Source: Lagopus muta (Eukaryota; Chordata; Aves; Galliformes; Phasianidae). From it: a DNA stretch of 64,000 bases. Under the pieces are notes generated by a model. That model ran no database searches. It was given only the letters and a program-made list of their open reading frames with translations, and had not been told where the DNA came from. Location: assembly GCF_023343835.1 (NCBI RefSeq), contig NC_064438.1, positions 16,473,077 to 16,537,076 of the forward strand, written 5' to 3'. The translations under genes and the position numbers were made by a program. Positions 8,843-33,263 of the stretch are shown here, in pieces. The first letter of the stretch is position 1. Every line of letters begins with the position of its first letter.

Positions 8843-8923
8843 ATGCAGAGGTGTGCGGGTTTCCTGTTTCTGTCTTTAATCCTTTGTGCCGCCCTGTCAG
8901 AAACATTCGGACTGGTTTTGTCT
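8843..8923 (+). CDS. GAL: GAL exon 2: signal peptide
   Basis: Twenty-seven codons, MQRCAGFLFLSLILC followed by AALSETFGLVLS; a typical hydrophobic signal. The acceptor TTTCTTTTCAG directly precedes the ATG and the donor is GTAAGT. It ends in phase 0. Confidence 0.95.
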
Positions 8924-11900
8924 GTAAGTATTCATCTCCCACGAGGGTCCTTTCCACTGGGCAGCATCCGTGCCAAAGCTGACAAGCGACAGTGAGCTCT
9001 TTCATGATATACCCTGCGTTTAGAGATACAGCAGTGAGACAAGACGTAGCACTCATACATTTGGGGCTGTTAATTACTTAAATACCAGGCTTTTGAATAA
9101 TAGCTCCCAAGTCACAAAGAATAAGAAACAAAGGTTTAGAGCAAAATTCAATGGGTACCCATCCCTGTCTGACTCAGAAAAGGTCAGATAAATGCTTTGA
9201 TATTATTATATTATTTATTTTTCACCATATTTCTTGTATTTCAAACCTTCAGAAGACACTTCTGGTAAGCGAGCATCCATTTGGGTGCTGTATGCCTTCT
9301 TGCCTTCAGAGCGTAGCTCAAGCACTAATCTACTTGCATTTTTCTTTCTTTGAGGCAAAAGAAAAAAGGGGCTGGACTTTGAACAGTGCTGGTTACCTAC
9401 TTGGGCCACGTAAGTCAAGTGCTCTTTCTCGTACTATTTCAAAACTCAGAAGTTTCTTCTTGTAAAACTTTTTGTTTGTTGTGTGCTACTCACTTCTCTG
9501 ACAACTACACTGAGCCTGCAAAGACTGAATGCTTGTTTAGATATTTATTACGTGCCTATTACAGAGCTGAGTTGCCTTAGGCAACAATTGTTTTCAGAAG
9601 AAGAGTCATGCTGTGAGACTTTATACACAGATGCACATCTAAGGCACTCTTTGTGCTACTGATCTGTAATTTCCATATGGCAAATACTTCATTTTACCTT
9701 TTTCCCCTTTTTCCTGGAAGTGTTACAAGACATCATAGCATCCCAGATGTCAGAGGAAGAGTGACAGAATGTGAAATTCTGGCATTACTCAACTTATTTC
9801 AGATTTCAGTTAAAATCTGTTTGAAAATGGCTTTAATATACTACTATTTAAAAAAAAAAATAATCCAAACAAATTAAACCAATTACAAAGTGCAAAGTCA
9901 TGGCTGTAACTGTAACACTTCATTGTGTGACACCAGGTACATACTATTCAAAATACAGCCACACATACTGGTTCACAATGATGAAAGATCATTGGATTAT
10001 AAGAAAATAGATGCTGTGTGTGCATTTGTAAGAAAATGCATGTACATTATAAGCAAAATGGAAATACAGTGCTAAGCTGTCTCAAATATCTGTCTTTCAT
10101 CATTTCTGGTTAATGTAATTACACTTTTTACCAATGTTTGTATATTCTCAGTCTCAGTGACACATGACCAATGCTGCAGCACCTACTGTAACTCTCCTTA
10201 TACAGACCACATAAAAGGATACATAAAACTGATTAACGCATCTTAAGTGTGTTAATTGGCATTGCAAATTTATGCCCCACAGCAGATCTAACCCAATTGA
10301 CAAATATGGAAATGTGCTTTTCAAATGCCGTTTATCTAAGACTGGGTAATAGGAATCATCCTTTGTTGCAGGTCGTATTGATCACCTTTTAATGATAAAG
10401 GAAATGCCCATTGCAAGGGGGAGAGAAGAGGCACCAGGGGCATGTAAGATAGTTTACATGAATAATCTTCAAAAATCTATCTGCAGCTTGTTCTTTACGT
10501 AAACACCTCGGCAACACTTTCTAATGGCAGGAGAAAGGATAGCAAAAACAGCCTTCCAGATTACACCCAAATGTACAGACTTACGTTTTACTTAGACCTT
10601 CCATTGAATTCAGTAACAGGTTTGACAAGTATGTACATGTAATGCAGGACAGAGTCTGAAAATGATAAAAATCATAACCGCAAATGTGGAAGAAAGGTTA
10701 TTTTAGTGACTTTTTTTTTTTGTACATAAGCATCTAACAAAAGTGTTCATTGTGATCTTTTCATTAAAATCCATGAGAGGTAAAGGTTGCTGCCAAGTCA
10801 ATTAACTCCTCTGATTTCTAATTTATTTGTCAGATGCAGTAGATAACCACAGATCTTTTAATGACAAACATGGTTTCACTGGTAAACGTGAAATACAGCC
10901 TGATGAGGATTTAAAAGCAGGTAATTAAATTCTGAAAGTTAGTACTGTTGATTTTTTAAGATGTCTTAATTTATTTACTGTCATTGATCTAAGTTAACTG
11001 CTTAGATATAAGGCTCCTCCTGCACTTTTGCAGATATCCCACTAAGTATTGGTGAGCAAGAAAATTTAAATTTCACCCACTCAGACTGTAAGTGTGCTTA
11101 AACTCTCTGTTGCCTTGGGAAAAGTGCCATAATTGTATTACTTTAAAAGCAGTATGATTTATTACACTTTAAATACATTGCTTTTTCTTTCTGCATACAC
11201 AGTTCAGTATATCAGACTTCACCCCAGACAATCAAGAGCTCATTTTTGTCTAAGAAATGAGATCATTCTTTCCAGTAGGGAAATCAACAGAAATAGGCAA
11301 ATATTTTTTTTGATTCTGATATTACAGAGCTGAAACCAACTGAATTAAAACTGTATGGCACTGCTTATGTTAGAAGATTATCAATCATTTAAAATAAGCT
11401 CTCCAAGTTAAGTTTCACATTGTTTCTGTATTTAAGCAATTTGCATTGTTTTTATTAAAGCTAGAGAACCGGCTTTGCCCAAAAACTAAGGCAAGTCAAT
11501 TAAAGTCAACTCAAATTAATATTTACCTCAGTTTTTGTGTTTCCAAAATGACTGCCGTTTTAGTGCTGGTTTGTAGTTATATTTTAAAACAACAACACCC
11601 AAACAAGAAGTATTTCCTCAACATCAGTACAAAGGTAATACTTCGCCAATCAGAAACAATAATAAAGGCAGGCAGCATTTGCAATCTAACAGTGTGGTGC
11701 ACAAGGCAATGCTGCCATTTGCGAATGAACTGCCAGCTCCTTCACTGAATTATATGATATTTAAGAATTTTGGAACTCTATGGAACTGCTGCTTGCCCAA
11801 ACTTACAAGAAAACATAACCAAACCTGTCTGGGTGGGACCTAAAAATACATATAACTGCCTCTGTTATTAACCATATTTTAGATGTTTTTCTCTTCAAGA

Positions 11901-14900
11901 AATGCTGCAAGCCCTCCTGATCAACTTGAGCTTATAAACTGTATTAGTCACATAATAATAGACTAAAAAAAAAAAAAAACAGCCCCCAAACCTTACCAAA
12001 ATCTATGAGAACATTTAAGGAAAAATCTTAAGCTACAAAACAAACAAACAAACAACTGTTTTGTTGCTAGAGTCTGCACGTAATTGGCTATACAAAAATC
12101 AGTCATATATACTCAGTGGAATGTGTGTATTCTCAAGTCCCTAATATATATATATATATGCAATAAATACCAGATGATAAATAAAATATGATGACTAGTA
12201 TGGTCATATTTATCATCATAAAAATCCATAACAAATGAGATCAGAATAAAATGAAATTAAGAAAAGAATTTCAAATGAAAACACAAGTGTTATTTACATA
12301 AAAGTTAACATGTTTCTGCCCATCCAAAGGCTGGAAGCTAAGACATCTAAACACAACTTCCACACAGATCCTTAAATGCTGACTCTATATCAGAAACTTT
12401 CTTGCTTTACAATTTCCCATCAATATTTTTCACATGGGCTGCACAGCTCCCTGTGGTCTGCATGTCACTACAGAAATGACTCATTTCTACGGTCAGGGAA
12501 GAATTCCCCCAGCATTCACCAGCTGCAAAACCTGCCTTTCAGACTATTTTCTGAGATGAAACATGTCCTCACTGATAACATCAAGGGACAGTATTTTCAC
12601 CAGTGTGATAATGGACTGTGAGTCAGATTCTGCTACCCACCTCTTCTATATGTAGAGAACTAAAACACTCTGCAAAATTACTACAATTTGTTCTCTAATA
12701 TGGAACAAGCTTCCACCTCGTTGATAAAAAGCAAGATGTCTCCACTTTTTAGGTTTCTTTTGTTTGCTTGTTTTTTTAATACACACAGCAAACATATAAC
12801 TCATTTTCCCAAGTAAACAACAAGCTTTGAGAACACTTGATTATTGGAGCAGTTTAAGAAGTATCAAAAAGCCAACTTGCACAAGATTACAGGGAGTAAA
12901 TAATACTTGTTATACATATGCAAAAGCACATCCTTCTGAGCTTTTAGATAAGCCCCAGACCCAGTTGTTAGGACTACAAATCACTTCTGTATCACTTAAC
13001 ATCTCACTGGGAACAATGTCAGACCTCATGCAGAACTTTTAACTATTTTGTAAAGCTGATGAATTTGCTACATTGACCCTTCCATTTCATCTCAAGCTAG
13101 CAGACACAAAAGAGGGAGTTGAGAACGAAGGATAACTCTCCTCTACAATTGAGGCTCACTGGCCTCAAGAATCATGACTGTTAAGCTGTCAAAGCAGTTC
13201 CTCTGCAGCAATGGCATACAAAGTGTGCAATTTCCATTTTGAGAATTGCAGCTGCATACCTGAAAGTTGCTTTGCCCTTCCATGAAAAGTGATGTTCCAT
13301 TTTAAGGATTTTTTTTTTCTAGATTGTCTTTCCAGGATCCTTATGAATTTAGTCACAATGTTGTATGCAATTAATAGATACATTTACGCCATATTAAGTA
13401 ATGACCAATTTATTTTTTTAGGAAATCTTGGAAGACCACTGGCTGACGAAAACATTGTGCGCACAATAATCGAATTTTTGACTTACTTGCATCTTAAAGG
13501 TAAGTGAATGCCTTTTAAATCCAGTTACTTATAGCAGAAGCACGGAAGATCTGTTTCTGTTGGCCTTTCTCCTGTGACATTCAGGACTAGTCTTGCATGT
13601 ACAAGTCTGCAGTAGATTTGCCTGTATTTCTGGGAGCAAGAGCGGGAGGAAGGGAGAGGAAGTCAGTTCTCCTTTAACATATCTAGGAATACATCTGACT
13701 TCATGAGTACAAGCAGTCCTGTCAAAATGTTAGCAAACAGCTCAAAATGCTGCTGGCAAAAGTATGGGAAGTCACAGAGCTCTGGCAAGGTTTGTAAAAC
13801 TGAGCTCACAGCTGATCTTGTCAGAACAGCAGTTTCATTATATCATTAGGTAAAGTAGAATTCTGTCTGCTTCTGATTTCGTTCATTTTAATCACAATTC
13901 TTGGTTTCTTCATAAATTTCTCAAAAAAAAACCCAAAACTTTCACACAAAAAAAGACAACTACATATTTTAAAATGTCTTCTGCCATCCTAAAACCATCT
14001 ATGAAATATTTTAAACGCTAACATATTTGCAAAGAACATAATGAGGAGAAAAATGATATTTTCTTTGCAAGTGATTGCAGAATTCTGTTTCAGGAAGCAG
14101 GCCATCTATTACTTCTATACTCTTCTCTTTGAATACAACAAATTATAAGCAATTTTGTCATGTGCATATGGTGTGGAATAGTAAGAATACGATGTGGAAT
14201 AGTAAGAAAAAACAAGGTGTTATATATCACTTTCATTATAAAAAAAGACATTCAATAGACCTATGAAATTTCTGTATGCCTAGGAAATAAAATTCTAGAC
14301 ACTCTGGCATAATTTTCTAAATGATTTGCATTCACCAAAGCAAAATAATTTTCACTACTAAAAACAACAACCCAATGCTTACTTAATCAAATTTGCCTTT
14401 GTTACAAAAACTCCTTACAGCTAGTGCTAAAGGCCTGAGAGAATTCAAATATATACATATGTTTAAAGAACATTATTAGCATGTATATTCACTGTGGATA
14501 AATAAAGATCTTGTTTAGCACTGAAAAGGAGCCCTAGACATTTATCTCCATACCTTGCTGTCTGAGCCTAGGGAAGCAAAAGCAATAACTGGATAAAAAA
14601 GGAAAGAATGCAAAACATGCAGAGTGTTAGAGTCCACTGTGGTGAATAGGCTAAGACCTACTGAGCTGTTGGGCAAGAAAATGAAATGCATCTCATAGAA
14701 ATACAAATTATTTCTTCCCTGGGACGAATGAGGAAAAAAAAGTGCAGAATAACTGTAACTATCAATTCCCTATTTAGCATAGTAATGCCAAACACCTTCT
14801 TTTATTCAGAAAAGATGGTATTGTTATCTGTCCTTGGAATACAGGAAAATTGTACCTCCAGAACATATAAAAATGGCTTTTCTTTGAGATAGTTCTTGTA

Positions 14901-15689
14901 TTCCCAGGTTATAAAAGACAGAATATTGTCACACTGTCCCCTAACCTAATACCTAACAGGTACTGCCAAAACCTAGTACAAACTTTTACACCAAATCTGA
15001 TCTGTGAATTTTGGAGGTGAAAAACACACTTTGATACTACACCTCTGTGGTGGAGATGCTTTAACCTTTTCCCTCAAATGTCACCTTACCACATTAAATA
15101 TATTCAAGTAGGTATGTTCCTTTGAAGGTGGTGTGTGAACCCACTCATGGAATTCAGCATCAGGGAATGGTGATACTCAGATTACATACAAATTTCTACC
15201 TATCTACAAGATGAAGTGATTGTTTCAGGTATTATCTCTATAAGAAATGCCTTAGAGATCACAAAAAGTGGCTTCAGCCATTTTTCTTGAAAATTACTCC
15301 CTCCAGTTTTAAAGTCTTGCCCATGTAAATCTGGAAGTAGAACAGCATGTGGCTGTCACTAATATTAAAACCTTTGAAGCTTGGTATCAGTAGTGTCATC
15401 TGTCACTGTAATTTCTTTTTTTTTAGTAACATTACAATATTTAACAGGCTGTTAACATTTAAAAGAAATAAAAAGTTCAGAAAGTAACCTATCAAAAGTG
15501 CAAAGATTTGCCACTTACAGTTAACAGAAAATATTTTTAAAAATGTGTACTACTGCAACTGGATCTTATGACTTACTTGACAATATTATTATGCATACTT
15601 ACACATCTGCTAATTCATTGTTTTCCTTCTTCGAAGAGGTGGGAGCACTTGACAATTTATCTTCACCAGAGGAAACAAACCAGTCTTGA
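8843..15689 (+). CDS. GAL: Prepro-galanin, full gene (five coding exons)
   Basis: Secreted neuropeptide precursor for galanin and galanin message-associated peptide (GMAP); galanin acts on GALR-type G-protein-coupled receptors. Coding exons 8843-8923, 9355-9409, 10834-10920, 13422-13499 and 15637-15689 join in frame to 117 codons plus stop (human precursor: 123). All have AG acceptors and GT donors, with intron phases 0, 1, 1, 1. Residues 1-27 contain a hydrophobic signal peptide; the KR in AKEKR precedes mature galanin, which starts [20 protein letters not shown] and ends GFT, followed by GKR, the amidation and dibasic cleavage signal. The rest is GMAP, with the conserved block IVRTIIEFLTYLHLKE. 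The start is the ATG directly after the exon 2 acceptor. Human gene order (GAL next to TESMIN and CPT1A) agrees. Confidence 0.97.
9355..9409 (+). CDS. GAL: GAL exon 3: KR site and galanin N-terminus
   Basis: Encodes AKEKR and [13 protein letters not shown], the receptor-binding part of galanin. Acceptor TTTCTTTGAG, donor GTAAGT. It ends in phase 1, splitting the His14 codon. Confidence 0.96.
10372..10443 (+). CDS. GAL: Candidate alternative cassette exon of GAL, 72 nt
   Basis: Lies in the intron that splits the galanin peptide. It has a good acceptor (CATCCTTTGTTGCAG) and donor (CAT/GTAAGA), is exactly 24 codons, and is phase 1 on both sides, so it can be included or skipped without a frameshift. 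Inclusion changes galanin after [13 protein letters not shown] to RRIDHLLMIKEMP and so on, ending REEAPGA, then Y in place of His14 and back into AVDNHR. The new RR directly after Pro13 is a potential cleavage site. I have an unverified memory that a longer avian galanin precursor form has been described. Without transcripts this remains a strong prediction only. Confidence 0.65.
10834..10920 (+). CDS. GAL: GAL exon 4: galanin C-terminus, GKR site, GMAP start
   Basis: Encodes HAVDNHRSFNDKHGFT, then GKR (amide donor Gly plus dibasic cleavage), then EIQPDEDLKA of GMAP. It is 87 nt, phase 1 on both sides, with acceptor ATTTATTTGTCAG and donor GTAATT. Confidence 0.95.
11034..11087 (+). CDS. GAL: Candidate alternative exon of GAL, 54 nt, stop-forming
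   Basis: It has an excellent acceptor (CTCCTGCACTTTTGCAG) and a near-consensus donor (ACT/GTAAGT). From exon 4 it reads on in frame as DIPLSIGEQENLNFTHSD, and its last base T joins GA of exon 5, or AG of exon 6, to give an immediate stop. Inclusion would keep galanin intact but replace the conserved GMAP block with a short new tail. It could also be an unused pseudo-exon. Confidence 0.4.
12143..12159. repeat. Short (TA)n microsatellite
   Basis: About eight TA units inside a GAL intron. An (AAAC)n run lies just upstream, near 12038-12054. Confidence 0.85.
13422..13499 (+). CDS. GAL: GAL exon 5: conserved GMAP block
   Basis: Encodes NLGRPLADENIVRTIIEFLT then YLHLK, the most conserved part of GMAP in vertebrates. 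It is 78 nt, phase 1 on both sides, with a T-rich acceptor ending TTTTTTTAG and donor GTAAGT. Confidence 0.95.
15637..15689 (+). CDS. GAL: GAL exon 6: GMAP C-terminus and stop
   Basis: Completes the precursor with EVGALDNLSSPEETNQS and a TGA stop. The acceptor TTCCTTCTTCGAAG was chosen over the AG two bases further in because only this choice keeps the frame and the galanin-type C-terminus. Confidence 0.92.
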
Positions 15690-15882
15690 AGAAGAAAATA
15701 TTTTTATTCTGTTGTAGTGCAAATCTGATTCAATTCTAAACAAAAGATCCAGAAGAACAGAAGATGAGACGTATTGTTTTCATTAATCTGAGAAATGGTA
15801 AATGATGTTCTGCCTCTTTGGTTTTGTTTTTCTCTCCTGTAATGTTATGGTGTAAAATTTTGGCTTGGTAGGTAAATGATAA

Positions 15883-15894
15883 AATAAAAATAAA
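15883..15894 (+). terminator. GAL: GAL polyadenylation signals
   Basis: Two overlapping AATAAA hexamers about 195 nt after the stop codon. They would end the transcript near 15.91 kb, giving a short 3'UTR as is usual for galanin. Confidence 0.8.
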
Positions 15895-15914
15895 CAGCAA
15901 CGTCTTTGTTCTGT

Positions 15915-18900
15915 TTCCCTTTAACAAGCGCACGATAATTCACATACAAAACCCAGGCTAAATGAAAAGATTATGCTGCATCTCATAAAATAGAACATAA
16001 ATACTACATATGGAACATCTTAGCTTACTGAGACACAGGAAAAGTTCAGTCTCAGACTGTTACCATCATACAATGTTTTTAGGTCACATCTTCTTGTACT
16101 TCTATACTTCATGGAAATCTTTCTTCCTGTTCATCTGCTTACAGACACGAAATGAGCTCATGTTCCTTTTGTATTTCATATTATTCACCTGTAATAAACC
16201 AGTCCAGAGGCTGAAGCTTACTTTTACACAATATAAATGTATCTTGGTTTACACAAACTACGTGTTTAGTTTTCCTATTCCTATGCCATCACAAATACTG
16301 GGTCTGTACACTTTAATGAAGAGGTTCTACTGGCTACTCCAGAATTAAAATTACATGTTATGAAGTGCCTTAATTTGAGTCTAGCAAAGCACCTGAAGAC
16401 ATTTAATTCCTCCAAAGAGTTCTGATGTATCAGGACCACAATGCGAGGCCCATAAAGTGTAAATGGCACAGCAGAATTGAGGAGAACTTTTAGAGTACGA
16501 AGAGTCTTATAAAGGTTCTTCACATTTGACTTTGACATTCTACTTAGCACAGTGAAATATCATCCTTTCATAATGCTGTTTTCTGGAGCACACAGACTGA
16601 CAGAAACGTTGCAGAACATTATTACGTAATCTGTTTTTCACTTTTAGCATAGCTGAGTATGTTCTAGATGCCAAGCCATTAGCAACTAATGTGAAACCAC
16701 AAGGCCATTTTGCCCTGTCAGTCCATCTTTGCTCTTCCTCCAATAATCACTCTGACTATGATTCAGTGTCTGATACACACCTTCAGAAGCATACGAAGTA
16801 TTTTCCATCACATTCAATAGGCTTTTGGGGAAGGCTTTCGGGGAAGGCTTTTTTCCCCCTACGCTATGTGGTAAACTTATGAGATTCCGAAACATGAAAA
16901 CAATACAGTGAACTCTAATTTGTGTACATTAGCATTGTTCAACACTTCAAAATTCATTTTTGCTAGTAATTTCCTTATCTCCAGTCATAAATTTGAACCA
17001 TGGTTTACTAAAATCAAGAGGAACTTTCAGCACCAAGCTCATGAAATTTGGAACGATTCTGTAGGAATGTCTACTTGAAGTTCTAAATGCACAGATTACT
17101 TGAAATGCTGAAGACTCATAGGATTAGGTCCCTTGCAAGATTTCCAGAGTTGTCTGGGCAAGGAGGTCCACAAGTTCTTACACATCACACCAAACAGTTA
17201 AGTGCACCTATTACAAATTTATATACGTATATCCACAAAAGCTGTCTTTTAGCTGCCCAAAGCAATCCATGTGCTCACATTCAAACATGTTTTGGTAATA
17301 ATACTCCAAAATACAGAGACATGTGGAATTTTAGAAGTATTTCTTCATTCTCCAGAGCTTTGGCCTTTGGAAATACAAAGGGCCAGAACTGTAAACAAGT
17401 ATTCTTTGCAGCCAACTTCAGTAAGTCTTATTTTATTGCTCTTCTTTTATTTAAAGCATGGCTTACATTTCCACAACTCAGACATAAATTTTGTAGACAG
17501 CTGGAATGACATCTCCATAATCAGACTCTCAAAAAAATACCTAATTAAAAATGCCCTTTAAACTATGATTTGAAAGCCATTTGTTTCATCACAGCAAAGA
17601 GAAGGCAGAAAGATTTGTTTCAATCAAAAATTTAAAACAAAAAACCCAAAACCAACTCCTAACCATTTTGTCTACATTTCATTCACTTGCACATTCCCCT
17701 GTATCATATCTCACTTCCATTGAGGATTAGATCAACCTTTGGTCTGCACTAAAGATAAAAGCCAAGGTCTAAAAAACAAGTAAAACTTTGTTGCAGTGTT
17801 TGCTAATGCAATGAAATTATTTGGCATACAAATTTAATACTGAAAATGAACAGGAGGCTCGCATGATTCTGAACAACTGGATAATAAAATGGAAGATGAA
17901 ATTAAATGCTGATGCAAGCAAAGTAATATGCACAGAGGAAAACAATTCTAATTTCGCATACACATAATCATGGTCTAAATTATCTCCAGAAAAACAGCTT
18001 AGACTCATTGTGCATGGTTCTCTAAAAATGTCATTCTAAACCCCAGCAGTATTTACAAAGGCAAATGGAATGCTAGGAATTATAATGAAAGCAGGCAAAA
18101 ACTCAAAAACATCACTATCCTACCATTCCCATCTTTGACACCAGTTGTACTTCTGGTCACTGCACTGAAAAAAAGAGGGTACTCTAGAACCAGAAAAGCA
18201 ATCAAGAAATGTGGTGAGGGTCTTCAGCAGCAGGAAACAATTACAAGCAGAGAGACTAAAGAGGCCGTGACTCATTAGCTGAAGAGATGGGTACAATGGG
18301 ACATTATAGTCTTAAACGTCACACTTGCAGTGTCTAACGAATTTATTCCGTACTGTAACCCAGGAACTAATGATTACCTAATAAAATGATCACGTAACAT
18401 TTTAGAACCCCACTCCAGAAGGAGGAGTACCTCTCTGCGCACTTCACAGTGAAACTGTGGTACTGGAAGGCATTGCAGAGGCCATGCTGCAGAAGCAGTT
18501 ACACTTAGAAGGAAAGTCCCTCAAAAACAATTGCTCCAAATGAACCTACTGGCTCAGAAAGGCTAACTGGATTGCTCCTTAGTGTATAATCAACTTGTGT
18601 GCGTACAGAGCTGTAATACAACCCTTGCAACTGTGATTCAGGGCTTAATTAAAGCAGGGATTCGTCATTTGCATAGCAGCTAGCGTCAGTTTACAAAAGA
18701 AACTTGGAAAATCCACTTTTTTTGGCTAAAAATGATAAAGGAATTAAGACTTCGTTCAGACAAAAAAGGTACAGCTTTAATATAGTGTTTCACTTGTCAG
18801 ACAGTCTCACCGATATTTGTTTAAATGCAGAGCAGTTCAATGCAGAAGGGTATTTCCAGATGGTGCACTTGATACAGAACAGTCTATTCAGATTAGGAAA

Positions 18901-21287
18901 CCATTAAGCAGCTGACAGGGTACATGCATTTTCCCACCTGTCTACTCATGTAAAGGTCAGACTGCAAAATTAGCATACAAAAATTAGATAGGGACTCAGA
19001 ATAATGAGGAAGCTTTATACAGGAATTGACATAACTCTGCTTTCAAGTTTAACGTTGCAATAGTTGGAAGCAAACTACAGCCCTGTTTCATATGACCAGC
19101 ACACTGACTTCCCAAGCTAATGGAGAACCTCGTGACAGCTCACAAAGGACTCTGACAATTTCTTAGCTGTACTTTCAGACAATTTTCAATTACTTAGCTG
19201 CTTTTCAGACAAGACAAGGAGATAATGAGGTGAGACAGTACATGAAGTAACACGTTAATAACTCACAGCAAAAGCTATGGATTAGTTTTATATAATTTCA
19301 GAGAATGGGACAAAAAAAAAAAAAAAAAAAAGCAAGTCAGAAATGGGCACCAGGGAATAGTTTGTAATTTACCCAGGATATAAATTACCTCAAGGGATTT
19401 CTAAGGCAGACGTGATGCTTGAAAGGAAGTTGAGAGCTAAGCGTTATCAGCAGAACAAATGAAATTTCACCAATTGGTGAAGTTCATCAATAAATTGCAG
19501 CTCTTTTTCTGTCACTATTTTGTGTCCTATCATTTACTTTTAAATTTGTAATGCATATAATAACAACTCTGATACTTACTTCGGTGAGGAGCGAGGATCA
19601 TTTCTATTGCTATAAGTTCCTATGATAGCCCTTTAGTCTTATTTCGGTTACGGGGGATTATATCCTGCTTTACTAAGCACCCCTGTTCTGAAAGATCGAA
19701 GATTTAGGAACCAGCATTTTTGGGGTGGATTTCACACTAGCTGATCTCCACTGCTACTAAAACCATTCAGAATGTAGACTCCAAAGCTTTGTGCAAGAGC
19801 TGCATGCACTTCTTCTGTATACAGAAATGAGTATTTGGGGGACACTCATGCTAGGCAGCTTCTTTTAGGATTCCTTAAAGCAACTTCAGGTACTTAAGAG
19901 GGCAGTTGTGCTAAGTGAAGAGCTGTATCATCATCTGCTCTCAGCTACCCAAAAGTGTGGGCCCTGACTGAATTCAGAACAACAGGCATTTTTGCTAGCT
20001 TCTGCAAATGCAGAAGGAACCTCGGCCCAAAGACTTAAGAATAAGCAAAAGCAAGGAGGAAAAATCATCATGATTTTAAAGCTCAGGATTACAGTTTTTA
20101 TTATAGTTTTTTTTATTATTACTTTCCAAAACGCAGTTTTTCAAGTTGTGCCTGCTTGGCCTTCATGCTAGTTATGCATTTATTTAATATTTAAAAATAC
20201 ACTTCTATAAAGTCAGCATATATGTGACAAATCCTGGCCTACCAAAACTTAGTAAAGCCGTACTGATGACTTTCAGATAGGTTTATGTATATCAGTTAAG
20301 ATCTGACACATCCAGTGGAGCAGTGTTATAATAAAATCTCATTCATAAGATCTCATAGCTTAGGATTAATATGATTTCAAAATAAAACCTATAGCCATTC
20401 TCGTTCCCTAAACAATTCTCCTCCTTCCTGCCTGCTGCAATGCAGATTACCCATGAAATCTTTTTGTTTTGTGCCTTCAAAACCATCTGATTCAATCTGT
20501 TAAAGAAATCATACTGTTCTGTATGTTTAGAAATATCCCCATGTCCATTAAATCTTAATTAGGTTTATGTAGTGCAAACTGTTTCTCTTTTTTTCCCCCA
20601 AACATTTACATTTTCTTTGTCTTTTGCAGCATTTCCATTTGAACTCCTTTTCCACCACACATCATAGAGTATCTTATCCCTGATTACAGCACTCAACATT
20701 TGTTTCCAAATTAACTTTGGTTAAACATTACAAATTTGTTGTGTCAATCACTGTTTTGACATCCTTCTCCCCACTCCAGTTGCCTATTAGCATAATGCAC
20801 ACTAATTACCAGTAAGCTGTATTTATGACAACATTGGCAAGCCAGGTGTTCTTTATTGAGCAGAAAAGCAGATTTAACATACTTTTTCTGTGACCTGTAA
20901 TAGCTATTATGCATAGGCACTAGTCTTTTCCTCAGTCACGAAAAGGCTGATGCCCCTTACAGAAAAAATTATGCATATATATTTTAAGACATTTTGCCTT
21001 TTGTAAATTCAAAGTGGAATCACATCTGTGAACAGGCTTGAAATACATCCACTGAGAATGATGCTCTTATGCTACAGAATTTGGGAAAAATACTTTTTTT
21101 GCTGAGCCTTCATCTGGATTTGTAATAAAAACATAAAGACTTGCACCTATTAAAGTTAAAACTCACACCTAATTATAGATTTCTCAAGCCCTGTAAGAAA
21201 CTAGTCAATAAATTCTTCATCACCAAAAAGCATTCTCAGGTACGGAACAATAATTTTATTTCTGCCTTTCTCAAACCCATCTGAACC
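15915..21287. other. Intergenic sequence between GAL and SPX2, first part
   Basis: AT-rich sequence with scattered chance ORFs, the longest about 140 codons at 17087-17509 with no recognisable motif. An A run of about 20 lies near 19312-19331. I see no exon, RNA gene or large repeat. Confidence 0.5.
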
Positions 21288-22400: not shown

Positions 22401-22432
<32 letters not shown>

Positions 22433-22441
22433 AAAAAAAAA
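22401..22441. repeat. Long A homopolymer
   Basis: Thirty A, one G, then ten A. The sequence before it does not look like a processed transcript, so I do not call a retropseudogene. Confidence 0.9.
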
Positions 22442-22610: not shown

Positions 22611-22631
22611 GGGGGGTTGGGGGGGAGGGGG
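22611..22631 (+). repeat. G-rich run with quadruplex potential
   Basis: Three G runs (6, 7 and 5 G) separated by TT and A. The length of the runs allows a four-stranded G-quadruplex fold. Confidence 0.6.
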
Positions 22632-23814
22632 TAACACTCACAGCTGCCAGGAAGAAAGATGTAAGTGGGCAGGAATACAACTCTCAGGACTGCTGAAGCA
22701 GGATTTCAACAGAAAAAAAAATTACGCAACACTGAAAATGTATTTTGTGTTCATTCAAAAAACTGAAGTGTAGGGCATTGAGAGAGCAGCCGCAACTTTC
22801 TGAAGAGATCACTGGGCACGGCTTTGGCAAAGTTGCTACACGCAGCTGCTTTCCTCTTTTGCATGTCTCACAACTTGGTCAGCTGGATGCAATCATACTC
22901 GTTTAGAGCCAAACAGCTGTGATTCTGTGATTTGCTGCTCTCCACACAAAGGATTTCTGGATTTACCCTTGTGGTTGACCAACACAGACACTAACAACAG
23001 CACATAAGAGGACTTTAGTTTCTGGGAACCATTTTGCCCTACAACTATCTGGTAAATGATGGCCTGCCAGAAGATTTGGAGACTGCGATATTACAACAAA
23101 GTTTTATTGTAACAGTGTTCAAAGCACACTGAACTAAATAAAAATACGTGGATGGCATATTGCAAAGGTATGAAAAACATGAATGCCTGCAAAAAGAGAG
23201 AATATCCAGTAACAAGAGTACCACAAGTATGGAAATAGGACTGACATAGAAATGGAACACAACAGACCAGATGCAGACTGCACACCCTGCAGACAAAATC
23301 TAATGTGCACAAATACATGTACAGATAAACATTCAGTTGATCTTATGGCAAATCTGAGCATTCCAAATCATAAATTAAGACACAGGTTTTGAGGCAGTGG
23401 AAATAGGTCTACTGTCTGATAATTAAGAAAAAAAAAATCAGCAGCTCTGAATTCTATAATGAGCATTTCAGAAATTTTTTACTGAAACGTTAAGTCTCTG
23501 GACTCCAAAACCACATTGGTGTTAGACGGGAAAAAATGAGTTTCTAGGAAATGAAGGTATGCATATATGTGCTTAATAGGGGTTATGACCCACATGAAGT
23601 GATGCTTCATTTTTAATCATGCTCTTCAGCAACGATTATGAGGGGAAGGAATTTTATTACTAGGTTTTACAGACAGAAATGGTAAGAAAAAAATATTCTT
23701 GCAATTTAAAATTTAGTCTAGATCGGTGGGTGTGTGGGAATTTGGATCTTTAACTCTTCCATTCAATTGCTAGCAATGGAACTGTTGACAGCGTAGCACT
23801 CTATCAGACAAAGG

Positions 23815-23909
23815 GTTGGGATTTTGGGTGGCCCTGTCTGGGTGGTTGGACTCCATGATCCTTGTGGTCCCTTCCAACTTGGGCTGTTCTGTGATTCTGC
23901 GATTTGAGG
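23815..23909 (+). mobile_element. CR1 LINE 3' end scrap
   Basis: Contains the CR1 3' tail pattern GGTTGGACTCCATGATCCTT, TTCCAACTTGGGCTGTTCTG and the terminal GTGATTCTGCGATT. About 95 bp remain. Confidence 0.85.
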
Positions 23910-26900
23910 GAAACAAAAAATTATGAAGCTAAGTTTTATCAGCATAGATCATTCACTTCTTCTGAGGCCAGTTGTGCAAACCCCTTCCTCTGAAGTCAAG
24001 GCACCATCTGCACAACTAGAGATTATCTCAGCTGCAAGCATCAGAACCAGGCCTCTTAACCTTGGCTAAATGATGTTGAATGACTGCATCAATTACCTGT
24101 GATAAGCCAGTGACTGGATCACATGATTAGTAGTTCACTCATCTTCTAGCTATCTAATTCATGGTTAATGACTGCTTTTCAAACACTCTTTACCATTGGG
24201 AATCAATTCATAAATCATCCCCTATTCACATAGGAGTTCACTGTCTGAAGAAAAAGTCTACGTAATGATGTGGATTTTATGCTTGTCATCTCTCTAGAAA
24301 GCAGCACATCTGGGGGGGAATGGGAAGAAAGCCACAAAACAAATTACACTACCTTGCCTCACAGCACTTTCTTTTTTGCTTGGCACAAGAAGATTCTCAC
24401 TTAAGCATACGACAGCTAGTCTCCTTTTCCACAAGGCTTTCTGCATTTATTTTTTTTTTCCCTCCTGTTCTTTAAGAGTTCACATATACTGTTTCTACCT
24501 AATCATATTTTTTCTTTGGTAAAATTTAATCATCTTCTAGCTTTGCTTTTTTTCCCCCTCCTCCAGACTCACTGACCCATAAATCAAGAATTTTAAGTAT
24601 TAAAATAAATCCGTGCCTCTTCCTGTAAAAGAGGTAAGAATGCAGTGGCTTCTATACAACCGAACAGAGGGAAAATAGATTACATGTGGTGTCCAGCATT
24701 TGAATTTGAACAACCAGGCTGATTTGACAGTTGTAGCATGAATAAACTGCTTTTGGACAGGGCAATATAGAGTAGACACTAGTACTGGACAATAAATAGG
24801 CAAACTAGTACAGTAAGGTTAAAGGATTTACTTTCAAGGACTGCAGAAAGCACCAATCTCCTCACCCATCAAGTCAATTTGCTACAGCTGGCATCCAGTC
24901 TGTATAAGCACTTTCCTATGTAGCAAAGTAGCAGACCATTAATAAGAAGGATTAATTTTTCTGTCATATGGGAACACTCTCAGGGTGAAGTGCAGTTAAA
25001 ATTCTCAGGCCTGTCACGTTGCAGCTTTCCAGCAAATCAGGAGTGAAGCTAACTTTCACATGAAAGCAGCTGGGAGCTAAGGATGACGAGAAGGTAGAGA
25101 GATGCAGTTTCCACACCAAAAAGGGCAAAATTTTGTAATATCTAAGAAAGAGAGGCAGAGCAGGTACAGTGATGATAACTAGGTTCAGCTAACAGTCCAC
25201 ACTGCCAGACAATCTTGGAGGGATGAAGCAGTCTGAGACAAAGTGAGATAAATGCATTTTAAAGTCAGTGTCAAGCAGGCTTTGCAATGACAGCAACATA
25301 GATTTAGCAAATGCCTGTGTGAGAGCTTCAGCTGAAAAGCTCCTCCTAGGTAAAGTGTTCCCCCAGGTATTGAAAGCAGCCCAATTCTCAGGAGGTGTTG
25401 GGCTCTGCACTCTGGGCTTAACACTGAACAAATCTTGACTTCCTGTGGTACTAAAGTTTCATCTGCATTGTGCAATGAAATGCTGTTCAGAGACATCTGT
25501 TACTCATAAGTGAATTAGATTTGCTTCTCAGTCCAATGATTTTGGCACAGCCCTGCAGTGTGCTATGGAGGAATAAGCCCCTGAAAATCAGCGCCACAAG
25601 TAGATGAATGCAAAATCCAAATGGGCAGAGCTGTCTATTTATTATTCCTAATTATGGCCATACAAACTCAAGACAGTTTAATATTTTTCATGTAGCTTAT
25701 AGCTTTGCTGAGTTCATTCAAAATGTGACATTTCTGACAGAGATTAAAGGGGCTATGGGTGCCCTCAGGTCATCAGCATATATTATATGCTAATATATTC
25801 AGAATAGACAAATGCCACATCTTTCTTCAGAGCAGTGAATACATTTCATATTGTGCTACATTATTAGTGCCATTAGAGTGCTTACTGTCCTGAATGGTCA
25901 CCACAATACAGATGTTCTGAAATAGCTAGTTCACAGAAACCAATCTAGAAAGTTCCATCTTCCTTTATCATAACACACCTGATGTTCCTTTTGTATTTAC
26001 TATAGAGATAATCAAAATCCAGTCAATTCAGCCCTAAGAAAGAAGAATAAACTGAATAAGGGAAAAAATGATTTGTGCACAGGCACAGGGGAAAAACCTG
26101 CCAAGTCTCTTTCACAGTTAAGTTAGCATTAATGTGTGGATGTGAATAAGATTAAATTATTAATAAATGATCAAAGCAATCACTGAAATGACATTATGGA
26201 AGTTTCCTTGGTCAAATTGCTACAGATTCCTTTTGTTTACTTCAGAAAAGACAGGAAAGAAAAAAGGAGACTGTAACAACAGTGCTCTATCCCCTCCTGC
26301 AACTCAGGAGGAAGCAAGTGGGAAACTTGTTTAGAGCTTGCAAAGGAAGATAAGGGACCTGTGATATAAAAGGACACCTATTAAAGACTCTTGGTGAAGG
26401 AGAGGAGAGTTTCTGCAGTACCTCACTGAAGCATTTAAAGGGCTGAACACTATAGCAGTGAGACCTTTGCCTGCTCATACACAGGAAAACAGTTGCAAGT
26501 AAACATTAACAGGCATTGTAATAAACCCTCAGGAGCAAATTTGCACAAACAAGGGAAAGGTATTCATACAACGTAAGTGCCTCAAATCTTGATCAGGTGG
26601 GCGTGTGTGTAAATTCATATTTGTTCATCATGCAGATATGATTATCAAGGTGGTTGCAGTGAAAAAGAGTTCAAATCTAGCAAAGAAGATTTGAACAAGC
26701 AGAGAAAGCATTCTCTGTGCTTACAGAGAAGGGCAAAGAAAAGTGTAGTGCATGGCTAAATGGTAAGGAAGTGATAGTTAATGAGGAAGAAATCACGTAC
26801 TATCCTACTTTCAGAATATGGTAGCCTAGAGATCAAATAAAGTGGTTTATTGCCAACTGTAATCAAAGCATTGTTGCAGCCACTGCAAATATGAATTACG

Positions 26901-27879
26901 CTTACAAGAAAGCAAGCTAAAAAGAAATAGACTTGGCAAGGCATTCTAGATCCTTCATGTAAAGAAAACACACCAAATTATACTTTACCATTTTCTCCAC
27001 AGCCATGAATGTCAAAAGTCTATTCTAAAACCAAATATCTTAGCCAGCGTGATACTTCATAAAGACAAGCCTTCAGGGAAAACCATGACAGCCAATACAA
27101 CCAATACAGTTTGCAAATCAGAGGCCTTCATCAGAACCGATACCAGTGAAAAATCTTGCCAGTTTAAGTGGGGTCTGAGTCTAGCCAGAAAGAATAGGAA
27201 AGTTGATTTTTCCTCATTTTGATTCAACATATAGCAAAGTAGAATATGGACAGAGTAGATATCTTCCCGATTTGAGAAAGTGGTTTGGGTTAAAAGAGAG
27301 TTAATCTCCATAGCTGTGAATTGTCTCTAGTTTTAATGATCCAGCTCCCAGTAAATTTATGCAAAATATTCTCCAGTGTTTCTGGAGAACGCAAGTAACA
27401 CCTGCTTCCAAGTTGACATTATCTCTCCCATAAGAAGTAGCAGCATACACAAAAAGCCACCTGCAACTTTTTTTTTTTTTTAAACACCCATAACATAGGA
27501 AAGTCAGATGCTAGACTTCATCCCTTCAAGGACTTGTTTATAAAATATCACCCTCAGGTTTTTTTTTTTTTTGTTTGCTTTGTTTTAAACAAAGAGCTGC
27601 TCAGCAGCCACAGTGATGTTTCTTGCCTATAATCCAGCTCCCCAAATTCTAAATCATTACAGTTAGCCAGAATGACCCACAGTTTTCACCTGGGGACGTG
27701 ACTTTTCCTCTTTTAAATTTCCTAAGTTCCTGTCACATTCACACCATAAAAAGGTGTGGAATGTTAACAATTAGACCTTAATTGTTCTGCAGTATGGTCT
27801 CTAACTTTCAGTACTTCCCCCCCCCCAAATATGAAAATAAAACAAAACGAAGCAACTCTATTTTCTATAGTTACAGAAG

Positions 27880-28200
27880 CCTCACTTTGAACCTTGGGAA
27901 GGTGATAGAACAGCTCATTCCCAAAACCATTTCCAGGCACAGGAGAACAAAAATCATTAGAAGTAGTCATCATGGATCCACCAAGGGGAACTCACACCTT
28001 GATAAACCTCTGTAATGAAGTCACCAACCCGATGTGTGAGTGGGGACCAGAGGATATTGTCTCTCTGGACTTCTGCAATGCCTTTGACGCCGTGCCCCAA
28101 AAGATGCCCATAGAGAAGCTGCTGGAGCATGGGCTGGATGAGCGGACGGAGGTGAATCAAAAACTGACTGAACAGCCAGGCCCAGAGGGCAGCAGTCAAT
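27880..28200 (+). mobile_element. CR1 LINE fragment from the reverse transcriptase region
   Basis: The translation shows a decayed reverse-transcriptase stretch: SHHGSTKGNSHLDKPL, then a frame shift into WGPEDIVSLDFCNAFDAVPQ and LLEHGLDERTEVN. These match the CR1/LINE pattern of an FTKGKS-type block followed by LDFSKAFD. This is an internal piece of ORF2 without the 3' end. Confidence 0.8.
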
Positions 28201-29385
28201 GACACAGAAGTGCACACATTTGAGCAATCATACTCAAATCTCATCCTTTCAAGCTGCGTTTCTAATGTTACCAAATACAGAAAAGCAAGAATCTTTTAAA
28301 TACTTTATCTCCCTTGCACTTTAGCTTTATTTTACTCTGGCAAAATACTTTGCTATAGTTCTTAGCTTGATTTTCATATACAGATATAGAGAAAACCTTT
28401 TATTTTGTGGCAGAAACACATTTTAGTTTCGGAAAGATCTGTAAGGATAAAAAGTTAATCTTTACTTCCTTACATATATAATGCTGTAACACAATGGAAA
28501 ACATAGCAAAAACAGCAGAGCAGCAAAGTCACAGGCTGCAACAAGTGAGGACTTGCTCAAATGCAACAGCCACATGCACAGAAACAAAGCAACTACTTAC
28601 CCTGAGGCAGCCTCCAGCAGACAGAAATCTTGAGTGATCCCCCTACCTCCACCACCAACTCTTAAATGAGGTCTGGGAAGGGGTGGATCCTGGCTCCCCT
28701 CCCCCACCCTTCTGGTCACACAGGTGCATTGCATTACATGCAGCTGAGCTTCCCTGCTTTGGCCCTGCCTTCCCACCAGGTGCTCAATCACTGGTTCAAA
28801 CTTTGACTTGCATTTCCCCTACATCACCTCATCGTTTTAAAAAGAAAAACTTTAAACAGCAAAAAAAAACCAAAAAACCCCTTTCTTTCTGAATACTACA
28901 GTTAGTGTAATCACATAAATGCATACAGTCATTGCTTTTGCAATCAAATGAGTAAAGGCCTGAAAGAGGAACACCAAAAAAGTGAAGACATACTCCTATG
29001 TAATGAGCTAGGGAACAATAAAAGAATAAAAACAAAAATAATAATAAATTCATGATCTAATGAGAAGATCATGAAAGTAAAATAAAATTTTTACAAATAC
29101 ATGAATTCTATGACATCACAAAACTTACAAAAAAAAAAATGAAAACAGGGAGAATGTGACAGAAAATTACACTGGTAGTAGAGTCAGGAAAAAGAAAAAA
29201 CTACGTTAATTACTTGTTTTGTGTAGTAGAAGAGAGGACTGAATATTGCAATTTCATGTATGCACCACCTACTAAGAATGCTTGACATTTAGTCAACTTG
29301 TGGTTGTTTTTTTTTGTTTTTGCTTTGCTTTTAGGTACAGGTTGTTTCCAGATCTCCTGGGGCCAACTGTCATTAACTACTCTGG
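28201..29385. other. Sequence upstream of SPX2
   Basis: Outside the repeat copy at 28625-28800 I see no gene or exon here. The stretch 28810-29200 is A-rich low-complexity sequence. It presumably includes the upstream control region of SPX2, but no specific site can be supported. Confidence 0.45.
28625..28800 (-). repeat. Copy A of a dispersed repeat near SPX2
   Basis: Read on the minus strand, this segment (TTGAACCAGTGATTGAGCAC, AATGCACCTGTGTGACCAGA, GAGCCAGGATCCACC, CAGACCTCATTTAAGAG) aligns with the segment at 32505-32690 in the same order. It is GC-richer than its surroundings. I do not recognise the family; an LTR-like or SINE-like origin is possible. Confidence 0.6.
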
Positions 29386-29393
29386 TATAAAAG
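29386..29393 (+). promoter_or_regulatory. SPX2: TATA box of SPX2
   Basis: TATAAAAG, a full-consensus TATA box, 254 bp before the likely start codon. It predicts a transcription start near 29415-29420 and a 5'UTR of about 220 nt that stays in the first exon up to 29639. This strong match suggests a tightly regulated, tissue-restricted promoter, as for other neuropeptide genes. Confidence 0.6.
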
Positions 29394-29639
29394 AGGCTGA
29401 CATAATTTCTAGTCTTAATCACAAAAGGTGGTAAATACTTTATACCTAATTCTCACAATGAATCTGCATGCATACATTATTGCCTGCAAGACAGGCAACT
29501 GTAAAGGACCATGACTGACTGAACTGAGATTTGTACATTTTATCATTGTCAGCTACTGAGCTCTTCGTATGTGAAAAAGTAGCAAAGCAGATCTTTGACT
29601 ATTCGGATGATAGAAGAGACTGACAGAAGTCGTGGTAGA

Positions 29640-29642
29640 ATG
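29640..29642 (+). CDS. SPX2: SPX2 exon 1: start codon at the splice donor
   Basis: The exon ends AGA ATG directly before GTAAGA, so only the start Met is coded here. It has A at -3 and joins AAA (Lys) to give the MK start seen in spexin precursors. A second in-frame ATG at 29607 lies in a weaker context and would add a charged 11-residue leader before the hydrophobic core. Confidence 0.75.
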
Positions 29643-32600
29643 GTAAGAAGTTTAGAGTGCATGCATGCAGACGTTTATAATAGTCACTGTTTCATTTTGC
29701 TTACTGCATCAGGAAAGAAAAAAACAGCTAATATTGTGTTTGTTTTCTTTCAGAAAACTAAAGCTGTTGTGCTTTTTGCTTGTGTCATCTTCATGGTTTT
29801 TCTTATTGTTGAAATCGGGTGTGCTCCAAAGGTAAACAGTGTTAAAGGTGTCTTTATTGTATAAGAGGGTTTGCTTCTTGTGAAATAACAGCCAGTTTCT
29901 TTCTATAACTTACAGGGTAAAACCATAGTGAGAAATTGGGGCCCACAATCAATTCTATATCTCAAAGGACGCTGTAAGTTATATTCAAAACCTGTTCTGT
30001 GGACAATGAAGCTATATGCTGATTTGGACTAAGAAGTTAAAAATTTGTTAATGTATTTTTCAAATGTCACTGAAAATCAAAGCATGTTAAACAGATTGCT
30101 TATGGCATGTCAGCTATGACAAATGAAATAATGCAGATCAATATCCTATATTAGGCAGTTGCTATAAGAAACTTCTTGTAAGCGTATTTGCATTATACAT
30201 AAGTTGTTTTAGCAGACGTTTATGGTATCATCTTTTACTCAGATATATACTCATTTTATAATGCCTCTCATGAACAAACCACACAGTACTAATTGCAGAA
30301 TTAAAATATACTTAATTCTTGTGGCAATTTGATGGCATTGGGCTGAAATATGCTGTTTATCTTTCTGTTTGTATTCAACCTCCCAAATACAAACAGTGAT
30401 CTACCTTTCTACATGCAAACTGAATGATGCATTTTATTACAAGGTTTGAAATACCTGTTCTGATTACTTTTAAAGCCAGCTAGCAAATAGGTGTTTTGCT
30501 TTGTTGAAATTTAGAAGAATCTTCACAGTAAGCAATCATCTCTTTATACTAAGTAACCAGAAAAAGACAAATGCTTGTGAGTAATAAGTGAGAGGACTGT
30601 GAAGTTGGCTTCTGTTTGCCAACAGAATGTCACTGAGTAGGCAGCCCTTCTAAAAATATCTTTAAAAACAAGACATTTGAATTAATGAGGTACTTGAAGA
30701 AGAGAGGCTCTATAGCACACCTACTCAGTATCTTCAGATATTACTCAGGTGACATTTGCTCTAGAGATTGAGGACTGCAGTTGATCTACTCTTTTGACTT
30801 CCAGAGTATATGTACAGTATTAAGTGAACAATTCAAAGAGTGATTGATGGTCCAAGAGTTTTTTGCTGTAATGCTATATGCCCTATGATTTGTAATTTCT
30901 GAAGACCGTCTGGATTTACGAGTTTCATTCTAGGCTAAGATATTATTAGAATTATTTTGAAGTGATTTGATGTGAAATCAAAATATTTCAGAGATGCATG
31001 CACAATAGATCTGAGGTAAATTTGTTTTTAATTTAAGTCACTGGATTATTCCCTCGAGTAGGAGTTTCTGTTCCATGATCACATCACTTCTTTCCAAATC
31101 TAAATTAGTCAGAAGATACAATCATACAAACAGATATGTTGAACTCATCTGCAATCTAAATAGAGTGTGCAGACTAAGACTCTTCTAATCACACCAGAAA
31201 AAGTACTGACCAAAACCATTGTATACTGAAGATGAGAATGAGTCATCAATAAGCAATTGTGGTAGATGTTGTAACTGTCGCTCATTGTATGATTTTGGGA
31301 GATATGTTCTTAATTTTTTTTGTCTCTCTTGTACAATACACAAGTGACAGTGGTACTTGAAAAGTAAGAAACTCTGACATTTAAGACAGACATCTTCTAG
31401 TTCTAACCACAACAAACCATGAAGCTGATCAGGTTTACAGACCAAATTTTTTTTTCCAAGTAATTTGAGTTCTCCCATTCTTTCTTCTCTAAATCTATAC
31501 TTCCTATAGGCACTGTGCAGAATATACAGATGTTTGAAAAGGGCAGTGTAAAATGATCTGTCTGACTATGCTATACAGAGAAACTAAGCGAGGGCCAGTG
31601 CCTTGCCTTTTAAAGTCAACGTCTATGTTCTGTAGGAGCTGCACAAGTATTCTTCCACCTACGTCTGGTTTTCCTCATGTATATGGTAAATTTGTACCTG
31701 TTGCTTTGGACTGCATGCAGCTGCTGATGGAACCATTTTTCTGAATTTTCTTTCTCTCTCATTTATCACTAGATGGCAGGAGATACACCTCTGAAAAGGA
31801 TGAACAGTATTACAAGCTTAACCTGGAGGACTTCAGCGCATTTTTAAAAAGTAATTTCTGAAGAAAAACATACATAATTTGCAAGTGTATTACCTGTAGC
31901 TATTTCTCTGTTGATTTCTATCATAGCAAAAGCAGAATCTTGAGGAACTGGGTATTTCTAACTCCACAGAATTTACGCTGCTGACGTTCTGTTTCCTGGT
32001 TTGGTACGCTGACTTAAATTTAGGGAAAAGTAGATTGAGGTCAGGATTTTTCCAAGTGCTAAGAATGATTTTGTTCCTGCTGCCTTTTACAACTTAAACC
32101 AAGCACACAGCACTGCCCTCTCTCCAAAACCACTGGTATTCTAAGAATTCAACTATTTATTGGAGAAAACAAAAAGAACACTGGTGGTCTTTCTGCATAA
32201 ACAGAGTTGAGAAAAGGCCAGCAGCAGTTTTGTGCACATTCAGAGCCAAAAAGGAAAAAGACTATAGCAGGAAGACATCTGGGGATAAGAAAAAAAGAAA
32301 GATGGAGAGTTTCACTTCAAGGTCTTCCTAGAATAGTGATTGTGGAAATATTACCAGAAAATTAGTGGCAGAAACAAAGCTCTAAAGAGAATGGGTTTTC
32401 CCAGCAACAGTTCAGCCAACCATAGAGAATGAACACAGCTTCAGTTTTAGTGATTTAGATCATGGTGATATTGTTGGAAAGTGTAAGGGAACTGCTGAAT
32501 CACACTTGAACCCCTGATTGACCACCTGAGGCAAGCAATCAGTCAGCCACGGAAGCACAGGTGAGGGTAATTCACCTGTGCTACTGGAAGGAGTGGAGCC

Positions 32601-33263
32601 TGGCTGCACCTCTCCTAGACCCCGTTTAAGTGCTGACTGCCACTGAGGAAGGTCTCTTCTGGAGATTGCTCCCTGTGGAGAATGTTGTAAGCCTATGACA
32701 TTGGTAAGCATTTTCCATTTAATATGTTCCTGTTGTAGTAATCTTACTTAGCCTAGCTTTCCTGGATATCTCTTAATTCTAACATCTGTATATTCATTGA
32801 TTATACAGAAAGTTAATGGAAAATAGACCACAAGTAACAAAAAAGCAATTTTATGCATAGGTAACCCTTTCCTCACCATTGGGTTGCTGTTGTGGAGAAA
32901 AATGCCACAATTCAGTTAAGCCTGTGAAAAACATTCAAGATTAAGTCAAGGTTAAGCTTTCAACACCCTATTATTGGTCTAGCTAAGCACATACTTTCTA
33001 TATGAGCAAGAACAATATTCTAGGCTTTTAAAACTGACAGATGTGTATCTACAGCTGCTGTAGTACAGGTACAGGACCCAAACCCAATATCTGAGGATGT
33101 CAGAGAATAGATCACAGCTTCAGTGCAGCTAGAATGGGTTACGAAAATGAATCATAGATAACAAATTTTGCTTCTTACAGAATATCCAGATAATATATAT
33201 GACTTTGTGTTGTCTGTTTGTTCGTTTTTTTTTTTTCCTTTAGGCTGTGTTCAACACCGCTGA
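29640..33263 (+). CDS. SPX2: Spexin 2 precursor (galanin/spexin-family neuropeptide), full gene
   Basis: Secreted neuropeptide precursor. Exons 29640-29642 (ATG only), 29754-29831, 29916-29973, 31773-31850 and 33244-33263 join in frame to 78 codons plus stop; all introns are GT-AG, phases 0, 0, 1, 1. Residues 1-24 form a signal peptide, MKTKAVVLFACVIFMVFLIV followed by EIGCAPK, resembling the spexin signal region that also ends CAPQ. A single Arg in KTIVR precedes the mature peptide NWGPQSILYLKGRY, followed by GRR, an amidation and dibasic cleavage site. Spexin 1 is NWTPQAMLYLKGAQ; the Gly3 and the GRY-GRR ending fit spexin 2. The tail after GRR is short (YTSEKDEQYYKLNLEDF, then SAFLKSCVQHR), so the precursor is shorter than spexin 1 (116 residues in human). 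Family ligands act on GALR2/3-type receptors. An in-frame upstream ATG at 29607 could add 11 residues. Confidence 0.9.
29754..29831 (+). CDS. SPX2: SPX2 exon 2: signal peptide
   Basis: Twenty-six codons, KTKAVVLFACVIFMVFLIV then EIGCAPK. Acceptor TTTGTTTTCTTTCAG, donor GTAAAC, phase 0 at the end. GAL also ends its signal-peptide exon in phase 0. Confidence 0.88.
29916..29973 (+). CDS. SPX2: SPX2 exon 3: mature peptide
   Basis: Encodes GKTIVRNWGPQSILYLKGR and ends in phase 1 within the Tyr codon, so the intron interrupts the mature peptide, as in galanin. Acceptor TTCTATAACTTACAG, donor GTAAGT. Confidence 0.92.
31773..31850 (+). CDS. SPX2: SPX2 exon 4: GRR site and tail
   Basis: Completes the Tyr and encodes GRR, then YTSEKDEQYYKLNLEDFSAF and LK. 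It is 78 nt, phase 1 on both sides, the same length and phase as the GMAP exon of GAL, which also ends in Leu-Lys. Acceptor CTCATTTATCACTAG, donor GTAATT. Confidence 0.88.
32505..32690 (+). repeat. Copy B of a dispersed repeat, in the last SPX2 intron
   Basis: TTGAACCCCTGATTGACCAC, AATTCACCTGTGCTACTGGA, GTGGAGCCTGGCTGCACC and TAGACCCCGTTTAAGTG align in order with the minus strand of 28625-28800. The two copies are in inverted orientation and lie on either side of SPX2 exons 1-4. The family is not recognised. Confidence 0.6.
33244..33263 (+). CDS. SPX2: SPX2 exon 5: last residues and stop
   Basis: Adds SCVQHR and a TGA stop after a long T-rich acceptor (run of T, then CCTTTAG). The splice site is strong and the exon is followed by poly(A) signals, but so short a coding part is less certain than the earlier exons. 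Confidence 0.72.

Follow-up and report, generated by a model that had tools for sequence, protein, structure and literature searches.

How two neuropeptide genes come to stand side by side on the same strand is the question raised by a 64,000-nucleotide stretch of the Lagopus muta genome (contig NC_064438.1, here C9, C9:16473077-16537076; 37.7% G+C, N count 0), which was analysed as a whole and is called the window below. It contains the galanin gene (GAL) followed by the spexin 2 gene (SPX2), and an initial annotation had taken this tandem as physical evidence of local duplication. Very probably the locus is a GAL-SPX2-TESMIN-CPT1 block in which the pair goes back to a local duplication older than the vertebrate genome duplications. 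Both the pairing and its explanation by an old duplication are already published and the locus is an ordinary one; what the present analysis adds is a comparison of exon phases in GAL, SPX2 and spexin 1 (SPX1) within one genome, together with a corrected gene model for SPX2. The initial annotation was right in outline on names and interpretation, with one doubtful exon.

Galanin and spexin 2 as adjacent genes

The two genes are adjacent, in the same orientation and about 14 kb apart, as had been claimed: 13,950 bp separate the GAL stop codon (15689) from the SPX2 start codon (29640), and each gene encodes its own Pfam domain (Table 1). GAL is read from an ATG at 8843 through five coding exons (81, 55, 87, 78 and 53 nt) with intron phases 0, 1, 1 and 1, giving a precursor of 117 amino acids (aa) with a Galanin domain (72.3 bits, cut-off 20.5) and a GMAP domain (95.8 bits, cut-off 25). 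Galanin is defined by its N-terminus and by 29 residues ahead of an amidation and dibasic site; the mature peptide found here opens with GWTLNSAGYLLGP and runs for 29 residues up to GKR, an amidation and dibasic site. A search of solved structures with galanin matched two distinct chains of this peptide; transportan also matched, over residues 1-13. A genome-wide Pfam search (1.03-Gb genome, 165 contigs) returned GAL as the sole Galanin-domain locus among 20 candidates scored, and gave no second such locus on which GALP phases could be mapped. Since the ATG of GAL directly follows an acceptor AG, the gene probably has a non-coding exon upstream. An extra exon at 11034-11087 was tried and dropped, as a premature stop results.

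Read to the TGA at 31859-31861, SPX2 consists of the start codon and exons of 78, 58 and 89 nt separated by introns of phases 0, 0 and 1, with a coding sequence (CDS) of 228 nt for 75 aa. The precursor reaches 31.9 bits against Pfam Spexin (cut-off 27) and had no relevant match among solved structures, the best being an alpha-amylase at E 0.19. Its cleavage sites are Arg33 ahead of the mature peptide and Gly48-Arg49-Arg50 behind it. Spexins are recognized by a mature 14-mer between Arg and GRR or GKR (PMC6593056), and the 14-mer encoded here, NWGPQSILYLKGRY, stands between Arg and GRR; it also has Gly3, Ser6, Arg13 and Tyr/His14, the residues typical of SPX2 (PMC7044129).

The statement that no gene lies between GAL and SPX2 is supported for genes with long, domain-bearing exons and is unproved for non-coding genes or genes with short exons. 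The interval contains 61 stop-to-stop frames of at least 55 codons, compared with 35-54 in 20 mononucleotide shuffles. Ten of the 61, drawn from the 14 longest with four minus-strand ones omitted, were scanned with Pfam; eight had no match at E 0.1 and the other two gave three matches (best E 0.0082), none of which reached its cut-off.

A common exon skeleton

The genome-wide spexin search located SPX1 on another contig (C1:66414672-66417911, minus strand), where its coding exons are ATGAAG (MK) followed by 81, 58, 63 and 84 nt, with intron phases 0, 0, 1, 1 and 1 and a last exon outside the model. Spexin exons 1-2 are known to encode the signal peptide and exons 3-4 the mature peptide (PMC6593056). 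In GAL, SPX1 and SPX2 alike, a phase-0 intron follows 27-29 signal codons (start codon included) and a phase-1 intron lies within codon 14 of the mature peptide, which bears out, from both gene models, what had been noted of GAL and SPX2 concerning the signal-peptide exon and the split mature peptide. The third agreement proposed for this pair, a following exon of phase 1-1, is true of SPX1, which has two further phase-1 introns in common with GAL, and in SPX2 depends on the doubtful exon. The first intron lies just before the ATG in GAL (8842), just after it in SPX2 (29643) and after two codons in SPX1. In the literature searched on intron phase and exon-intron structure we found no comparison of galanin with spexin introns, and Kim et al. 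(2014) may contain one.

Gene structure is stronger evidence for the kinship of GAL and the spexins than precursor or DNA similarity. The cores of GAL and SPX2 do align, as had been proposed, with identity at 5 of 13 positions (permutation p about 0.003-0.005, for the register chosen beforehand only), and positions 2, 9, 10 and 12 are kept across SPX1, SPX2 and GAL (PMC6593056). At the level of DNA, blastn found no similarity between the GAL and SPX2 loci (best E 0.1). In precursor alignments the nearest relative of SPX2 is SPX1 on the other contig and not the neighbouring GAL, the two spexins scoring 101, a value equalled by none of 5000 shuffles.

Origin of the pair

GAL and SPX2 would owe their adjacency to local duplication of an ancestral GAL/SPX gene, earlier than the genome duplications of vertebrates; these would later have split spexin into SPX1 and SPX2, with SPX2 retaining galanin as its neighbour. 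Both genes, their order and strand, their exon skeleton, the finding that SPX1 is nearer than GAL to SPX2, and one candidate paralogous block come from this genome; the order of the duplications we infer. A local-duplication origin of GAL and SPX is the published model (PMC4131245, PMC7044129, PMC9174643, PMC10003256), and papers citing Kim et al. (2014) describe both the linkage of GAL with SPX2 and a local duplication preceding the genome duplications. SPX2 is reported to share a chromosome with GAL in zebrafish, Xenopus, anole and coelacanth, to lie close to GAL in chicken and to be missing from human and mouse (PMC10003256). In zebrafish, spx2 is found between gal and ldhd on chromosome 25 (PMC7044129), so that SPX2 is not at an unrelated locus in all other vertebrates, the pattern that the initial annotation had named as pointing to translocation or misassembly.

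The old shared origin read from the tandem is supported, and published; the tandem alone is no evidence that SPX2 was copied from GAL, because SPX2 is far nearer to SPX1 and blastn found no similarity between the two loci. The best reading is of two neighbours that already stood together before the genome duplications and have stayed so. With such a remnant, location and intron positions, in place of very short peptides, can serve as grounds for the split between galanin and spexin; the part of this reasoning that draws on location is already in the literature.

Traces of paralogous blocks were sought around SPX1 and GAL. Matches to the LDH family occur 69 kb from SPX1 (C1:66.35 Mb) and 4.0 Mb from GAL (C9:12.46 Mb), and matches to the inward-rectifier (IRK) family at C1:66.27 Mb and C9:11.79 Mb. 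We take these genes to be LDHB and KCNJ8 near SPX1 and LDHA and KCNJ11 on the GAL contig. Their presence on both contigs fits two paralogous blocks and is weak when taken alone. GOT1 (PF04178), tried as a landmark for SPX1, pointed to a wrong place on C1. If KISS, GAL and SPX once lay side by side, a kisspeptin remnant might be expected in the window; a six-frame scan of its whole length with two kisspeptin core sequences reached a best score of 24, under the best of each of six mononucleotide shuffles (26-39), and the candidate was rejected.

Several results weigh against the explanation by an old local duplication followed by the genome duplications. Over the whole precursors, the alignment of GAL with SPX2 (score 29) is not significant, 422 of 5000 shuffles being as good (171 of 2000 in a separate run), and neither is that of GAL with SPX1 (248 of 5000). 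Homology of the C-terminal propeptide exons of GAL and SPX1 (78 and 84 nt, both phase 1-1) fails at p 0.60, the same test giving p 0.06 for SPX1 with SPX2 and p 0.27 for GAL with SPX2; what links GAL to the spexins is a short core, the intron positions and place. The genome-wide spexin search gave three matches, all of them in SPX1, and did not return SPX2's own short exon. The LDH coincidence has by estimate a chance of about 1 in 30, that of the IRK family being likelier, and the paralogy comparison is weak because there are many loci (seven LDH matches at 4 loci, 15 IRK matches at 14 loci) and because the two families are probably linked and not independent. The signal-exon intron of kisspeptin is implied not to be of phase 0 (PMC9400282), unlike that of GAL and SPX, and so gives no help to the KISS part of the KISS/GAL/SPX model.

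Some of these observations favour convergence, by which unrelated peptides would have arrived at the same galanin-receptor core and become neighbours by chance or translocation: the whole-precursor similarity of GAL and SPX2 is not significant, the core identity is just 5 of 13 residues and the C-terminal exons show no similarity. Against convergence stand a codon-14 intron of the same place and phase in all three genes, the agreement of GAL with SPX1 in four intron phases, and a linkage retained across bony vertebrates (PMC10003256, PMC7044129); we consider it very unlikely. Adjacency, common strand and partly matching exon phases could also come from a recent, lineage-specific tandem duplication in which GAL was copied to SPX2 in the bird lineage. 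This is rejected because blastn found nothing and SPX2 is much nearer to SPX1 than to GAL, and the reported presence of SPX2 on the chromosome of GAL in the four other vertebrates named above (PMC10003256), next to gal in zebrafish (PMC7044129), likewise leaves it hardly any credit. Nothing was found in favour of a misassembly or translocation limited to this assembly, which can be dismissed with near certainty, given a window free of N, a SAPS-domain (PPP6R-type) gene at C9:16.422-16.432 Mb, which precedes the GAL start codon by about 50 kb on one contig of 59.6 Mb, and the same pairing published for chicken (PMC10003256) and zebrafish (PMC7044129).

Table 1. Positions of the genes and exons in the window, with the strand and the reading given to each.
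Feature	Position	Strand	Reading
GAL coding exon 1	8843..8923	+	signal peptide, 27 codons; ATG directly 3' of acceptor AG; ends in phase 0
GAL coding exon 2	9355..9409	+	galanin residues 1-13; phase 0-1, intron in codon 14; Pfam Galanin PF01296
Candidate GAL cassette exon	10372..10443	+	72 nt, phase 1-1, in frame, acceptable splice sites
GAL coding exon 3	10834..10920	+	remaining galanin residues, GKR site, first part of GMAP; phase 1-1
GAL coding exon 4	13422..13499	+	GMAP; phase 1-1
GAL last coding exon	15637..15689	+	stop 15687-15689; AATAAA at 15883 and 15889
SPX2 start codon	29640..29642	+	final three bases of first exon; intron phase 0
SPX2 signal-peptide exon	29754..29831	+	26 codons; phase 0-0
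SPX2 mature-peptide exon	29916..29973	+	residues 1-13; phase 0-1, intron in codon 14; Pfam Spexin PF15171
SPX2 last coding exon (published chicken model)	31773..31861	+	residue 14, GRR, C-terminal propeptide, stop TGA 31859-31861
Fifth SPX2 exon of the initial annotation	33244..33263	+	outside published cDNA; possible minor isoform
TESMIN-like gene	42487..57492 (approximate, ends set by eye)	-	TCR cysteine-rich domain matched by two pieces
Carnitine acyltransferase gene, 3' end	61489..63120 (approximate)	-	PF00755, 34.9 bits, cut-off 22.3

The 3' end of spexin 2

The doubtful exon is the fifth one of SPX2, to which the gene had been spliced from 31850, giving an exon of phase 1-1 and a product of 78 aa. 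The chicken SPX2 cDNA has 75 aa, a CDS of 228 nt and four exons, with R33 and G48R49R50 (PMC10003256), and on the strength of this published model the end of SPX2 is placed at 31861 and not at 33263. The donor at 31850 scores -1.1, the lowest of nine scored (others 0.6 to 7.7), and the acceptor at 33244 scores 8.8, the highest of ten, by a weight matrix. No AATAAA or ATTAAA occurs between 31773 and 33367, and the published chicken 3' untranslated region of 668 nt (PMC10003256), projected onto the window, would end near 32529. Because of the top-scoring acceptor and the missing polyadenylation signals up to 33367, a second SPX2 isoform that includes 33244-33263 may exist. An AATAAA is found at 33368, downstream of this short phase-1 reading frame with its high-scoring acceptor, and the exon agrees with the additional phase-1 intron that SPX1 has. 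The corrected gene model is of use for primer design and precursor annotation.

A candidate cassette exon in galanin

The 1.4-kb intron between the exons for galanin 1-13 and 14-29 contains one candidate cassette exon (Table 1), the only one of its kind there. A control sequence of 13.5 kb also contained one, so that about 0.1 would be expected by chance in the intron; the cut-off applied was crude and would miss some real exons scored alongside. With the cassette spliced in, galanin residue 13 would be followed by 24 additional residues, opening with a possible Arg-Arg cleavage site. A DNA search of the genome gave a single match, the cassette itself, and no other copy. Alternatively spliced forms of galanin have been described in a cichlid (PMC4992253), and a 2021 sea-bass paper, known by its title in the reference list of PMC9174643, concerns galanin isoforms produced by alternative splicing; the literature searched yielded no description of a bird galanin splice form. 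It is unlikely that the cassette is a real, regulated exon, by which the precursor would yield a 53-residue galanin or free galanin(1-13). If it were, galanin(1-13) would be of the size of spexin and end at the place of the intron shared with spexin, and each of the two neighbouring genes would supply a short ligand of galanin receptors, the two differing little in length.

Flanking genes

From left to right, GAL and SPX2 on the plus strand are followed on the minus strand by a TESMIN-like gene and the 3' end of a carnitine acyltransferase gene. Two pieces of the TESMIN-like gene match the TCR cysteine-rich domain, one at 31.4 bits, above the cut-off of 23.5, and one below it at 20.6 bits; a third piece, at 42.5 kb, had no Pfam match. 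The carnitine acyltransferase gene we take from its place to be CPT1A, and the human order we assume to be GAL-TESMIN-CPT1A. By eye, a long GAAA tetranucleotide repeat is seen at about 41013-41136, between SPX2 and TESMIN, and CR1-like interspersed repeats within the TESMIN-like span at about 45200-46200, 47030-47670, 49890-50360 and 56300-56640.

Predicted function and comparison with known systems

GAL and SPX2 would encode secreted neuropeptide precursors that are cut at basic sites, releasing peptides with a common W2-Y9-L10-G12 core, and both peptides are predicted to act on galanin receptors. In chicken, SPX2 activates GALR2, GALR3 and, most strongly, GALR2-like (EC50 53 nM), does not efficiently activate GALR1 and GALR1-like, and on peripheral injection lowered feeding (PMC10003256). 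Nothing seen in the window contradicts, for the predicted product, the function published for chicken SPX2.

The SPX2 of the window agrees with that of chicken on all numbers given for the coding part (PMC10003256), the comparison being one of numbers and not of letters. In zebrafish, spx2 likewise adjoins gal, while its other flank is ldhd (PMC7044129), the place held here by the TESMIN-like gene. Within the same genome, SPX2 resembles SPX1 in its 58-nt mature-peptide exon, in the phase-1 intron of codon 14 and in 9 of 14 identical mature residues, whereas SPX1 extends further at the C-terminus, with two additional phase-1 introns, and lies on a contig on which the Pfam search returned no galanin-domain locus.

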